DNA from: a virus
DNA: 36,157 bases
Direction: 5' to 3' (one strand)
IMG/VR virus record: IMGVR_UViG_3300021961_000287
Coordinates: 1-36,157 of that record
Shown: one piece after another, positions 2,820 through 26,542 of the stretch
How the letters are laid out: every line of letters starts with the position of its first letter
Position numbering within the stretch: position 1 is the first letter of the stretch
Position numbers and translations under genes: made by a program
Notes under the pieces: model-generated
Database searches by the model: none
What the model was told of the DNA's origin: nothing
The model's input: only the letters and a program-made list of their open reading frames with translations

Positions 2820-2848
2820 ATAATAACTTAGTAAGGTATATTTGTCAA
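2820..2848 (-). promoter_or_regulatory. sigma70-like promoter for tRNA-Asn
   Basis: TTGACA (2843-2848), 17-base spacer, TATTAT (2820-2825) on the minus strand. The -35 box overlaps the TGA stop of the pyrB gene. Confidence 0.65.
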
Positions 2849-3639
2849 CCTTTTTTTATTAAAATGTCTTGGATTATTGCCTGACGCATGATAAGTCCGT
2901 TGTGCATCTGTTCAAAGTATTTTGCTCTCGGATCGTTGTCAAACCAAGTTGGGATTTCTTCATTTCTAGGAAATGGGTGCATTACTATAGCAGAGTCTGG
3001 TATGTGATGTATATGTTCTTTTCGCATACTATAATTGCCACTACTGCCTCTTTCACGTTGTACTCTAGTTAGATAATATACATCACTAGCAGGCCAGATT
3101 CGTTTATCATAGGTAGGATAGAAATGTTTTGTACAGTTAGGTAATGCTTTGTCTAAACTGTGTACAGTTCTGCCATTTTCAATATCGCCTACAAATGTCA
3201 CAGTGAGATCTTCGATACGCCCAAAGTGCTTGTGAATTGTATATAAGTCTAATAGAGTTTGAGTAGGATGTTCTCCGTTGCCGTCACCAGCATTGATAAC
3301 AGGTACTGTACTAACGTTGGCGGCTTTGTACGCTTCACCTACTAGTTTGCTACGTAATACTATTACGTCAGCATAGTTGCTCATTGTGCGAATAGTATCT
3401 TCAAGGTTTTCACCTTTGGCAACACTACTATAATTTACGTCATTGATACTAATGACCGATCCGCCCATACGATACATAGCACTAGCAAAACTTGAGCTTG
3501 TTCTAGTGCTAGGCTCATAAAACAGATTGCATAACACCCTAGGTCTCGTGAACATACGTGGACCATGAGTTTCAATATGTAAGGCGAAACTTATGAGCTG
3601 ATTGATATCAGCGTCATCGATGCTGATTAGATGTTTCAT
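2845..3639 (-). CDS. pyrB: Aspartate carbamoyltransferase catalytic chain, compact phage form
   Basis: Makes N-carbamoyl-L-aspartate from carbamoyl phosphate and aspartate, the committed step of pyrimidine synthesis. Active-site motifs visible in order: YEPSTRTSSSF (41-51), SVAKGENLEDT (72-82) with the lysine contributed to the neighbouring subunit, VLRS (94-97), GEHPTQTLLDLYTI (122-135), GDIENGRTVHSL (151-162), TRVQRER (191-197) and MHPFPRNEEI (220-229). These match the ligand-binding positions of E. coli PyrB (STRT 52-55, Lys84, Arg105, His134, Arg167, Arg229/Gln231, PLPR). At 264 aa it is well short of the usual ~310; most of the loss lies between the GRTVHS helix and the TRVQ strand. No regulatory-chain gene (pyrI) is seen. 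It sits behind the 110-aa gene at 3660-3992 and shares its promoter. Confidence 0.93.
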   Translation of the reverse strand: MKHLISIDDADINQLISFALHIETHGPRMFTRPRVLCNLFYEPSTRTSSSFASAMYRMGGSVISINDVNYSSVAKGENLEDTIRTMSNYADVIVLRSKLVGEAYKAANVSTVPVINAGDGNGEHPTQTLLDLYTIHKHFGRIEDLTVTFVGDIENGRTVHSLDKALPNCTKHFYPTYDKRIWPASDVYYLTRVQRERGSSGNYSMRKEHIHHIPDSAIVMHPFPRNEEIPTWFDNDPRAKYFEQMHNGLIMRQAIIQDILIKKG

Positions 3640-4508: not shown

Positions 4509-4972
4509 TAAAGAAATCACTTATCGTAGCGGCATCTGTGTTAGCTCTATCAACTGCTAGTACAGCAAATGCCGGTGATCAATACTACAGCCACAATGAT
4601 CCATCAGGTATTTTACTAGGTGGTATTATTGGCGGTATCATTGGAAACAATATTGGTAACAGTAAAGGCAACGGAGCGGCTGGTGCGGTTATTGGTGCTC
4701 TTATTGGTAATAATATTACCAACCATGGACATTATAATCAGCATCCACCAGTAACTACAAGCTATCGTAGAGAAGTTGTTGTTGTAGAACCACAGTATGT
4801 GCAACCACAGTATGTGCAACCACAGAATTTTGATCCTTGCTTACGTTATCACAAACCAAAAAATCGTAGAGCTTGTCGCCAAGGACAAAATCTACATCAA
4901 CAAGATCATGCTTTTAACTATGGGTATAACAACCAGAGACGTTATAGTCATAACAATCCATGGTGGGATTAA
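4505..4972 (+). CDS. Exported glycine-zipper protein, 155 aa
   Basis: A clear signal peptide (MIKKSLIVAASVLALSTAS then TANA, cleavage before GDQYY) leads into a glycine-zipper segment at about residues 35-70 (GGIIGGIIGNNIG, then GAAGAVIGALIGNNI). That is the pattern of the glycine-zipper 2TM / rickettsial 17-kDa antigen group, which inserts in or sits at the outer membrane. The C-terminal half is Q/N/Y-rich with a PQYVQ repeat and two cysteines (DPCLRYH, RRACRQ). Driven by the sigma70-like promoter at 4319-4347. A host-derived gene used to alter the envelope or exclude other phages is an inference. Confidence 0.75.
   Translation: MIKKSLIVAASVLALSTASTANAGDQYYSHNDPSGILLGGIIGGIIGNNIGNSKGNGAAGAVIGALIGNNITNHGHYNQHPPVTTSYRREVVVVEPQYVQPQYVQPQNFDPCLRYHKPKNRRACRQGQNLHQQDHAFNYGYNNQRRYSHNNPWWD
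4790..4825 (+). repeat. 15-bp tandem repeat in the glycine-zipper gene
   Basis: The unit CCACAGTATGTGCAA occurs twice plus six bases (2.4 copies) and encodes the repeated PQYVQ. Copy number could vary between relatives by slippage. Confidence 0.9.
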
Positions 4973-5709
4973 AGACTTCTAAGTAAGTCCCAAGTTTCTT
5001 TCCAATCCGCAACGGAATGTACTTCGCCCAATGTGTCGTTGATGATGCGTTGGGCGATTGTATGATCGTTCCCTGTTGGATCTGTACGATCTCCAAAATA
5101 TTGAACATGCCAATGGTATGGAGCAAACGTTGACTTTTGAGAACCTAAGTCTAGTGTGTCAATTACCTGTTGTTTGTCTGCACCTTTGGGATAGATATCA
5201 ATACTGATTTCTCCTCCAACTTTAGCCTCAAGATCAGGAAACACTGCACTAATCTCTGTTGCTATACGAATTCGCTCGCCAGACTGGTTATCATATTCAT
5301 TGTATTCTTTACGTTGCTCTAAGTTGGCTTCACGACCTACCACACTAAAATTTACCAGTCCCGGTCTCTTTTCAATGTGAGTTCCTGTGCGTCGTATATA
5401 GGGGCTCTGAAATAATTTTTCAAGTAAAAACATATGTAGCCCATCGGGCATAGTCCAAGGATTGGTATAGATGTTTTTGCCTTGTGCCCAAATGTCATTG
5501 CCCAAACAGTTGAATGAGCGTCCAACACTTTCGCAGATTTCGGAACCAAGTTGTTCTACTGTTTTGGGATAGTCACTGCCAGTAACCAATCCAACATGAT
5601 ATGATCTGTTGCGTATAAAGTTGAGAAGCCAACGTCTAAAGGTTTCATCAATACGCTGACGGCTGGGAGTAAGTGTTCCGTCGACGTCAAAAAGCAGTAT
5701 TTGTTGCAT
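4969..5709 (-). CDS. Eukaryotic-type phosphomannomutase (HAD superfamily)
   Basis: Interconverts mannose-6-phosphate and mannose-1-phosphate, the step before GDP-mannose. The 246-residue length equals that of eukaryotic PMM1/PMM2. HAD motif I is FDVDGTLT (7-14) with the nucleophile Asp8 and Asp10; then LVTGSDYPKTVEQLG (41-55), the substrate-binding stretch RPGLVNFSVVGRE (115-127), GGEISIDIYPKGADK (165-179) and the metal-binding end FGDRTDPTGNDH (205-216). Each aligns by eye with human PMM2. This is unlike the large bacterial ManB/AlgC enzymes. AAGGAAA precedes the ATG. The stop overlaps that of the convergent glycine-zipper gene by 4 bases. It may work with the isomerase-type cupin encoded at 12197-12964. 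Confidence 0.88.
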   Translation of the reverse strand: MQQILLFDVDGTLTPSRQRIDETFRRWLLNFIRNRSYHVGLVTGSDYPKTVEQLGSEICESVGRSFNCLGNDIWAQGKNIYTNPWTMPDGLHMFLLEKLFQSPYIRRTGTHIEKRPGLVNFSVVGREANLEQRKEYNEYDNQSGERIRIATEISAVFPDLEAKVGGEISIDIYPKGADKQQVIDTLDLGSQKSTFAPYHWHVQYFGDRTDPTGNDHTIAQRIINDTLGEVHSVADWKETWDLLRSL

Positions 5710-6274: not shown

Positions 6275-6592
6275 ACTTGGATTAAGGTTAAGTGGCCCGT
6301 TCTGTTGCTAGGTGGAGCCATACCCCCTGTGGTTAAGCCGCTAGGGCTAACTCAGAAGTTGCAAAATTATCGTTTGCAGTTATAGTTTTTCTTGCATTAA
6401 CCGAGCTTGCGCCGGACGACTCCACTCTTCTATTAACTACCAGTCGATCCTGGTTCGCCCCCATCATAAGCACACTGCTTTCGGTTAATAACTCTATGAG
6501 TAGCATAACACTGCAATCACAGTGTGCTTATGGTGGAGGCGTCGGGTACTGCCCCCGAGTCCTGTATAGCGTTTGAATTGCTTCAACATCGC
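6275..6592 (-). ncRNA. ssrA: tmRNA, circularly permuted two-piece type
   Basis: The acceptor piece (about 6592-6531) comes first and ends GCCTCCACCA. It contains a T-arm (TCGGG/CCCGA around GGCAGTA) and a GCAA-capped hairpin. A spacer forms a hairpin (TAAGCACACTG with CAGTGTGCTTA). The coding piece starts at 6462 with GGGGGCGAACCAGGATCGAC, the tmRNA 5' signature. GGGGGCG pairs with CGCCTCC of the acceptor piece (one G-U) to make the acceptor stem, and CTGGTAG pairs with CTATACAG (one bulged A) as helix P2. The tag frame at 6377-6333 reads ANDNFATSELALAA then TAA, beginning with a GCA resume codon and ending with a ClpXP-type LAA. The order acceptor-before-coding is the permuted form known in alphaproteobacteria. 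tmRNA rescues stalled ribosomes. The outer ends are approximate. Confidence 0.93.
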
Positions 6593-6596
6593 AGTA

Positions 6597-6812
6597 TTAT
6601 TTATACACTAGGTTTGTAGATTTGTCAAGTACTTTTTGCCAGGCTTCTTCAAAGCCTTCTTCGTAGATGTATGCTTCTTCATTGTACCATAAACGTTTAG
6701 TATAGTCTCTAACCATATCTTGTATGGTTTCATCACTCCAACTATTTGGGACTAGACGCCCCTTTACCATCCAGAATAACCTGTTTGCTTGTTTAAGCTC
6801 TAGGGCTGTCAT
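6597..6812 (-). CDS. Hypothetical protein upstream of tmRNA, 71 aa
   Basis: Starts MTALELKQANRLFWMVKGRL and is acidic and aromatic-rich in the second half (LWYNEEAYIYEEGFEEAWQK). No family recognised. Its last codons (VYK stop) contain the TATAAATA late-promoter element of the tmRNA. It lies beyond the terminator of the porin-side genes only in space: the porin gene is transcribed away from a separate promoter and ends at 6909, before this gene begins. Confidence 0.6.
   Translation of the reverse strand: MTALELKQANRLFWMVKGRLVPNSWSDETIQDMVRDYTKRLWYNEEAYIYEEGFEEAWQKVLDKSTNLVYK
6598..6605 (-). promoter_or_regulatory. T4-type late promoter for the tmRNA
   Basis: Perfect TATAAATA on the minus strand, ending 5 bases before the apparent 5' end of the tmRNA acceptor piece (6592). 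The spacing fits a late start there. It lies within the 3' end of the gene at 6597-6812. Confidence 0.7.
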
Positions 6813-6908: not shown

Positions 6909-7793
6909 TTAGAAAGTAAAGCTAATACCACTACGAGCTGTCCAGTCGGTAGCATCGTTGTCATAGTCGACGGTTGCGAATGCAACTGCACCGCTATCGC
7001 CAAACTTGTATTCTGCGCCGCCAGTGATAACACCGTCATCATTTGCCGCATCTGTGTCGCCATAACCAGCCTTAAGAGTTAGTGAGTCAGTTAGGTCATA
7101 ACCAACAACTGCTTCATAGCCAATTACGTCTGTTGCCGCATCCTTCATGCTTACGCTACCTGCAACTAGGATTGGTCCAAAGTTACGCTCGATACCAACA
7201 CCATAGTGTCCAATATCTGTAATAGCGTTGTATGCGTATGCAACACCAATGCCAAACATTTCAGCACCGACTTGGAAACTGTCAATAGCTTCATTTTGTG
7301 CATCGTCTGTCATTACAGCAAGTGCGCCGATCTGTAGATCACCGATCTTGTTCATGTAGCGTACACTGTTTGATTGATAGAAGTTTTGCTTCTGTACGCC
7401 TGCGTTGCCACCTTCAAAAAACTGGTCGCCTTTATCAACGAAGATTTCCATAAGGCTCATGTGCTTACCTAAACTAATTGCACCAAGTGTATCGTGTTGA
7501 ACACCTGCGTATCCAAAACGAGTTGTTAGTGCATTACTGCTGTTAACATCAACATCAGCACTTAGTTCGCCAAATACGCTGATATTTTCAGCGACTCCAG
7601 CGTTTGCTACCACGCCTAGCTTTGAGCTATCGCTACGCACACTAGGATCTACGTCGTCTTGGCTAGTCGCTTGGACGAACGCACGAACCTCACCAAACAC
7701 CTTTGCTGTTGCTGGGGCTGGATGGTTATCTGCAAAAGCAGATGTGCTTGCAATCGCTAACATACTAGCGGCAACCATAGTAAACTTATTCAT
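6909..7793 (-). CDS. Outer-membrane porin, Gram-negative trimeric type
   Basis: Likely forms a beta-barrel channel in the host outer membrane. A standard signal peptide (MNKFTMVAASMLAIASTSAF, cleaved after AFA at residue 21) leads into alternating beta-strand sequence (KVFGEVRAFVQ; FGELSADVDV; FGYAGVQHDTLGAISLGKH). The final GISFTF ends in phenylalanine, the outer-membrane-protein assembly signal. FGYAGVQ...LGAISLGK is the typical region before loop 3 of the bacterial porin (Porin_4/OmpC-like) group. At 294 aa it is compact but complete. It has its own terminator (6853-6884), and two abutting palindromes lie upstream (7867-7900); a clear promoter is not visible. Phage-encoded porins are known (Lc of lambdoid phage PA-2), where they replace host porins and block related phages. 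Confidence 0.88.
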   Translation of the reverse strand: MNKFTMVAASMLAIASTSAFADNHPAPATAKVFGEVRAFVQATSQDDVDPSVRSDSSKLGVVANAGVAENISVFGELSADVDVNSSNALTTRFGYAGVQHDTLGAISLGKHMSLMEIFVDKGDQFFEGGNAGVQKQNFYQSNSVRYMNKIGDLQIGALAVMTDDAQNEAIDSFQVGAEMFGIGVAYAYNAITDIGHYGVGIERNFGPILVAGSVSMKDAATDVIGYEAVVGYDLTDSLTLKAGYGDTDAANDDGVITGGAEYKFGDSGAVAFATVDYDNDATDWTARSGISFTF

Positions 7794-25600: not shown

Positions 25601-26542
25601 TTATGCACGTTTAATTGCGTCAACAATAGCATGGTCGAAGCCGTAATCCTTTTCATAAAGATGAGCTGTAGCTTTAGCAAAACGCTCTTGCTCTTCTTTA
25701 CTTAGATGCACAACTTCAATGTTGTCTGCTTCACAACGAGCCTGTGTCTTTTCAACATCAGCTACACTGATTGAACGCTCGTACTGTGCGGCAACTAGTG
25801 CGGCATCAGAAACAATCTTCTGCTCAGCTTCGCTTAGTTCATTCCAGAAGCCTTCAGCAATTAGAATGCTTGTTAGGAATAAGCTATGCTCTGTGTGGTT
25901 AACAACTTTGGACACTTTGTTTTGTCCTAGTGCATAAACACGTGGGTATGTGCTTTCACCAACTGTAACTGTTGAGTTGTCGATGTTTTCTGTTAGCTCT
26001 TCTAGTTCCATTGGAACAACATCTGCACCCATTGCTTTGAATGTGTCAATAGCAACTGGTGAGAATGAAGTGCGAACTTTCATACCACGTAAGTCTTCAA
26101 TACGACGAACTGCTTCTTGTCCTGGGACAATACGGAAGCCGCCGCTGTATGTAAATGCTAGACCTTTAACAGCCTTACCGCTCTTGGTTAGACCGTTTAA
26201 TAGTCCTTTACCAACTTCACCTTCAAATACACGTGAAGCATGGTCGTGGTCCTTAAATAGGAATGGCATATCTAGCGCACGGAATTCTGGGCAGATCTGA
26301 CCTAGTGAAACTGTGTATGTCTGTGACATTTCAATTTCACGATTGTCTAGTAGATCTACTAGATCGTGTTTGCTAACTAGCTTGCCTTCTTGATACTTAT
26401 TTGAGTAATCACCTAGAGTCATTACTTCGATTTCAAATGCGCCATTGCTCTTTTCAGCAACTTCTGCTTCAAAGACTTTTGCGGCACGAATGAAAAGCTC
26501 GATTGGCTCGTGTGCGAGAACCCAACGGATTTTCTTTGTCAT
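25601..26542 (-). CDS. TRAP-type (DctP-like) solute-binding protein without signal peptide
   Basis: 313 aa, the usual length of mature TRAP substrate-binding proteins that capture organic acids in the periplasm. Family features in order: WVLAHEPIELFIRAAKVFEA (7-26), IEVMTLGDYSN, the RALDMPFLFKDHDHASRVFE region, RIEDLRGMKVRTSFSPVAID with the conserved binding arginine, AMGADVVPMELEELTENI, and the VSKVVNHTEHSLFLTSILIA helix-strand pair. The N-terminus, MTKKIRWVLAH, goes straight into the first strand with no signal peptide, so the protein should stay in the cytoplasm or join the virion. It is flanked by its own sigma70-like promoter (26573-26600) and terminator, between gp16 and gp4. Substrate unknown. 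Confidence 0.85.
   Translation of the reverse strand: MTKKIRWVLAHEPIELFIRAAKVFEAEVAEKSNGAFEIEVMTLGDYSNKYQEGKLVSKHDLVDLLDNREIEMSQTYTVSLGQICPEFRALDMPFLFKDHDHASRVFEGEVGKGLLNGLTKSGKAVKGLAFTYSGGFRIVPGQEAVRRIEDLRGMKVRTSFSPVAIDTFKAMGADVVPMELEELTENIDNSTVTVGESTYPRVYALGQNKVSKVVNHTEHSLFLTSILIAEGFWNELSEAEQKIVSDAALVAAQYERSISVADVEKTQARCEADNIEVVHLSKEEQERFAKATAHLYEKDYGFDHAIVDAIKRA

Follow-up and report, generated by a model that had tools for sequence, protein, structure and literature searches.

A circularly permuted tmRNA gene on the minus strand

The stretch of DNA analysed here (the window; 36,157 nt) is an IMG/VR fragment of a T4-like jumbo-phage relative, and carries T4-like myovirus genes for terminase, tail sheath, tail tube, UvsX and a gp32-like SSB. 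Its terminase is 53% identical to that of the PA5oct group and 50% identical to that of Sinorhizobium phage Phosso (469 kb). The minus strand carries, at 6591-6293, a circularly permuted (two-piece) tmRNA gene. An Rfam scan of the window returned matches to RF01849 (alpha_tmRNA; 6645-6291, minus strand, 125.9 bits, E = 3.4e-34) and to RF04321 (tmRNA_permuted; 6591-6333, minus strand, 109.4 bits, E = 1.1e-20), for which the gathering scores are 50 and 47, respectively. An earlier note on this DNA had proposed a permuted two-piece tmRNA at 6275-6592 and had called for a scan with the Rfam alphaproteobacterial model; the score lies far over the cut-off and the proposal is borne out. The region was examined on both strands, and the strand, which the note did not state, is minus. 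The standard one-piece form (RF00023), in which a tRNA-like 5′ half is followed by the tag and then by the 3′ half, was rejected for this gene on account of its permuted order and the lack of an RF00023 match at the gathering threshold.

A putative sigma-70-type promoter (6600-6628, minus strand), recognized from the sequence, sits within the 3′ end of a 71-amino-acid ORF of unassigned function (6597-6812, minus strand; tblastn and phmmer), which is directly upstream of the tmRNA. The promoter consists of a -35 box TTGACA (6628-6623), a 17-nt spacer and a -10 box TATAAA (6605-6600) that scored below the rule of the promoter scanner, and its end is separated from the acceptor piece by about 10 nt. 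The acceptor (tRNA-like 3′) piece (6531-6590, minus strand; RF01849 and RF04321 matches, with the mature 5′ end estimated at about 6590) comprises, in order, the conserved TTGAAGC, the P2 strand CTAT-A-CAG (6569-6562), GAC, the T-arm (6558-6542), CGCCTCC and an encoded ACCA ending at 6531. It is followed by an intervening segment of 68 nt (6463-6530, minus strand) that holds no ORF of note; in two-piece tmRNAs this segment is excised. Its arms, AUAAGCACACUG and CAGUGUGCUUAU, pair as one long hairpin that continues the acceptor stem, with a folding energy of -44.7 kcal/mol when the acceptor stem is included. The coding (mRNA-like) piece (6293-6462, minus strand; RF01849 match, 3′ boundary predicted) then runs from the acceptor 5′ strand GGGGGCG through a D-loop-like region, the P2 strand CTGGTAG (6443-6437) and the tag to a 3′ pseudoknot. 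The tag reading frame (6333-6377, minus strand) extends from GCA to TAA and encodes ANDNFATSELALAA, and the H-type pseudoknot (6293-6325, minus strand) pairs GGGU with ACCU and UGGCUC with GGGCCA around the invariant AACAGAA.

The acceptor stem GGGGGCG/CGCCUCC forms all seven of its seven pairs, among them G3.U, a hallmark of alanine tRNAs; the T-stem forms five of five, and the P2 helix pairs CUGGUAG with CUAU-A-CAG across the two pieces. The encoded CCA, the hairpin spacer, the cross-piece acceptor stem and P2, and a tag with a GCA resume codon and an LAA end had all been described in the earlier note and are all present in the window. Membership of RF01849 is thus indicated by a covariance-model score above the curated cut-off; by a CCA-ended acceptor piece 5′ of the coding piece, with acceptor stem, T-arm and P2 formed across the pieces; by a tag frame with an Ala-type resume codon and a hydrophobic AA end; and by the AACAGAA-centred 3′ pseudoknot inside the coding piece. 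These features support the view that this T4-like phage encodes a tmRNA of the circularly permuted, alphaproteobacterial type.

ARAGORN reported six tRNAs and no tmRNA in the window, and found no tmRNA either in Phosso or in the jumbo relative G022, despite strong Rfam matches in both. That the program is blind to the window gene may explain why such genes stay unannotated, and surveys that depend on it clearly undercount two-piece tmRNA genes.

Several other minus-strand genes of the window are of separate interest. They encode an aspartate/ornithine carbamoyltransferase-like protein of 264 amino acids, possibly metabolic (2845-3639), a phosphomannomutase-like HAD protein of eukaryotic type (4969-5709) and, amid tail and structural genes, a DctP-family TRAP-transporter solute-binding protein (25601-26542; Pfam E = 1e-50). 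A 294-amino-acid protein (6909-7793) begins with what resembles a signal peptide, matches nothing in Pfam or PHROG and may be an outer-membrane protein; a homologue 50% identical to it occupies the same place in the related phage G002.

Conservation and phage setting

In G002, the terminase of which is 83% identical to that of the window, the same pair of ORFs flanks the tmRNA, whose acceptor stem, tag (ANDNFASEDFALAA) and T-arm are intact, the last with changes in the T-stem. Its promoter keeps the TTGACA-17-TATAAA layout although the promoter spacer sequence differs. The arms of the intervening segment resemble those in the window, and the loop has diverged. Among 81 distinct viral homologues, all seven acceptor and all five T-stem pairs persist, and positions that the search pattern left free show compensatory changes. 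The T-arm and acceptor of this set were picked by pairing, whereas P2 played no part in the selection; pair 2 of P2 is paired in 81 of 81 homologues, by four pair types. Of 99 distinct homologues, 91 form one pseudoknot helix and 96 the other; re-dealing the partners gives about 55 and 45.

Such conservation bears on whether the gene is a relic without function that the phage took from a host and that now drifts in its genome. Relics of this kind could readily arise, as tmRNA genes are common integration sites from which fragments get captured, and the patchy distribution across the jumbo-phage lineage would fit. However, neither the window nor G002 has lost any paired element, the tag frame, the CCA or the promoter, whereas the spacer loop has diverged, and the pairs covary across many viral copies; we regard a relic as highly improbable.

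The type of tmRNA varies among the relatives. Three jumbo relatives (G022, G025 and G044) carry a beta-type permuted tmRNA (RF01850), and in four gammaproteobacterial ones no tmRNA of either form, permuted or one-piece, exceeds the cut-off. A search of 50 related records gave no RF00023 match above the cut-off; the sub-threshold matches are mostly tRNA-like fragments. A Microviridae record gave a weak match. In a terminase tree, the resolution of which is limited by fragments and long branches, tmRNA types are scattered, and the tree did not reveal a single origin of the tmRNA. More than one acquisition is therefore likely, and judging from these sequences the phage lineage of the window probably acquired tmRNAs more than once. 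It follows that tmRNA type is a weak guide to the host. The earlier note had taken the permuted form to point to the host: the alphaproteobacterial type holds, but its value as a pointer is low, given these beta-type relatives and methylophage Melnitz, which has a two-piece tmRNA of alpha type in a non-alphaproteobacterial host (PMC9004378).

Two further arrangements were seen in this survey. In Ruegeria phages V10 and DSS3P8 (L007:343-776 and L008:343-776), a GOLLD RNA lies directly upstream of a tRNA and the permuted tmRNA, and in Sinorhizobium meliloti (L243:1074-1282) the host tmRNA gene adjoins a gene for an SspB-family adaptor.

A viral tag and host partners

The pattern ANDNFAxSE[L/F]ALAA occurs in 38 viral contigs and in 0 of 84,980 prokaryote species genomes, and the broader ANDNFA-x4-ALAA in more than 119 viral contigs and 1 of the 84,980 species genomes, in scans with degenerate DNA patterns of two collections (viral and species genomes) for the completeness of which there was no independent positive control. 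The lone cellular match, NHBR02000136.1 from the 'Muricauda sp. TMED12' MAG (L241:1-8000), is itself a phage contig: it bears an alpha-type tmRNA and, by reading of its sequences, RegA-, clamp-, clamp-loader- and dCTP-deaminase-like genes. On the strength of these phage replication genes it was judged misbinned and rejected as a cellular carrier of the tag; it appears to be a T4-like phage contig misbinned into a Bacteroidota MAG. A literature search for ANDNFA in published tags brought up unrelated papers only.

Host tags on alphaproteobacterial replicons include ANDNYAEARLAA, ANDNVGMEMRLAA and VNDNNAGYALAA. The phage tag differs from these, yet shares their ANDN start and LAA end. It copies no host tag in the scanned genomes and its form is viral, in agreement with the suggestion in the earlier note that the phage has a tag of its own. 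The ANDN start and ALAA end are the elements read by ClpX and SspB-type adaptors. The best explanation is that the window tag is a virus-lineage version that would still fit host proteases, and the viral tags in general seem to be a set of their own and not copies of those of present hosts.

Searches of 21 related phage records found neither SmpB (PF01668) nor SspB (PF04386), with bacterial controls positive in 10 and 2 genomes, respectively; for SmpB the absence refers to these relatives, the window being a 36-kb fragment. The RNA would accordingly need host partners, with SmpB supplied by the host.

A different use of the tag would be to send its products to another protease or to shield phage proteins from SsrA-dependent proteolysis. 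Its absence from the scanned cellular genomes would suit such a role, and the earlier note had likewise envisaged routing to different proteases. Routing of this kind is not supported, because the tag retains both ends, ANDN and ALAA, as in VNDNNAGYALAA and ANDNYAEARLAA, and the tested phage records contain no gene for an SspB-type adaptor (or for SmpB); we consider diversion unlikely. Dependence on host SmpB also means that the phage RNA must compete with the host tmRNA, and so raises the idea that this RNA is a decoy or an inhibitor: by competing for SmpB it would divert tagging in the trans-translation of the host, or block it. There is a precedent in the tmRNA of mycobacteriophage DS6A, which lacks a CDS and, according to a passage in PMC11915505, has been reported to act on host trans-translation in this way. 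In contrast to DS6A, however, the window gene has an undamaged tag frame with its resume codon and stop, all conserved in hundreds of viral copies, which makes a decoy very unlikely.

We therefore favour a tmRNA that works in ribosome rescue. Host RNA polymerase would probably transcribe it from its own strong promoter and, as in known two-piece tmRNAs, host RNase P and 3′-end nucleases would cut the precursor on either side of the spacer hairpin, yielding a CCA-ended acceptor piece and a coding piece that stay associated through the P1 and P2 helices. Host alanyl-tRNA synthetase would be expected to charge the RNA through the G3.U pair, and host SmpB would bring it to stalled ribosomes, where it would append ANDNFATSELALAA for ClpXP-type proteolysis. 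The phage would probably benefit by sustaining ribosome rescue during infection, as damaged mRNAs build up and host genes are shut down. We put the probability of this explanation as a whole, that the window tmRNA is complete, selectively maintained and of alpha type, and is transcribed by the host, cut, charged and engaged in tagging during infection, at about 0.9. Phages with their own rescue RNA and apparently no SmpB would offer a direct test of the role of trans-translation in lytic infection.

Spacer genes in related phages and comparison with known systems

In viral permuted tmRNAs the spacer is between 5 and 499 nt long. Once redundancy among the viral contigs was removed, 116 spacers had a length of at least 75 nt, and 39 of these hold an ORF of at least 25 codons behind a Shine-Dalgarno site; 60 dinucleotide shuffles yielded 4.9 +/- 2.6 (maximum 11). 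These ORFs fall into at least eight unrelated protein families. In example pairs for which saturation allows the comparison, dN is far below dS (0.034 versus 0.68, 0.065 versus 0.67 and 0.15 versus 1.96); a Melnitz-type pair is less clear (0.10 versus 0.24). For one of the families, a small membrane protein with the sequence WSICAD, a pattern scan identified 119 viral stretches. In 54 of them the ORF is enclosed by complete acceptor and coding pieces, and its TGA stop is then always 4 nt upstream of the latter; in 38 of the 119 stretches no tmRNA was seen nearby. Some of these contigs carry gp32-like or exonuclease genes, which marks them as phages, and the protein had no match in isolated phages. 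The spacer of the beta-type tmRNA of G044 (L096:1500-1787) encodes a homologue of the window ORF at 6597-6812 (tblastn and phmmer), and the spacer of the Melnitz tmRNA also has a nested ORF. Loci with spacer-nested genes are L122-L240 and L364-L587 (viral tmRNA loci), L003:1532-1675, and L141, L217, L231 and L237.

As the 68-nt spacer of the window has no ORF, this finding concerns the group and not the window copy. For the group of phage two-piece tmRNAs to which the window gene belongs, we think it likely that the excised spacer has repeatedly nested small-protein genes, such that one precursor would give rise to both a rescue RNA and an mRNA. No report of spacer-nested genes was found in the literature searched. 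If true, the arrangement would make a textbook non-coding precursor a messenger too.

Phage two-piece tmRNAs have already been published: in addition to Melnitz (2022), a survey counted 133 unique tmRNA structures in 402 phages, 53 of them two-piece (PMC9004378). The window gene is therefore not a new class. A tmRNA has also been reported in the Sinorhizobium jumbo phage AP-J-162 (PMC11242549). New here is the tmRNA of Phosso (L002:1945-2590), which has a 410-nt spacer and the tag ANDNVSTKVALAA and is unannotated in its record. It resembles the window gene in the broad jumbo-phage kinship of its carrier, its alpha type and the same form of 3′ pseudoknot, and differs in its tag and spacer length and in the lack of synteny. 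The tmRNAs of G022, G025 and G044 come from the same phage lineage by terminase, but are beta-type RNAs. Melnitz and the pelagimyophages (PMC9004378) share with the window a phage-encoded, alpha-type permuted tmRNA; Melnitz, with the tag ANDNYVPVDYALAA, belongs to another phage lineage, and its tmRNA gene is followed by a glutamine riboswitch and contains a spacer of 142 nt that holds a small ORF. With the two-piece tmRNAs of alphaproteobacteria (Caulobacter and Sinorhizobium), the window gene has in common the permuted order, the cross-piece P1 and P2, the CCA, G3.U, an ANDN...LAA tag and the 3′ pseudoknot, whereas its location in a phage, its 68-nt hairpin spacer and the ANDNFA-x4-ALAA shape of its tag set it apart.
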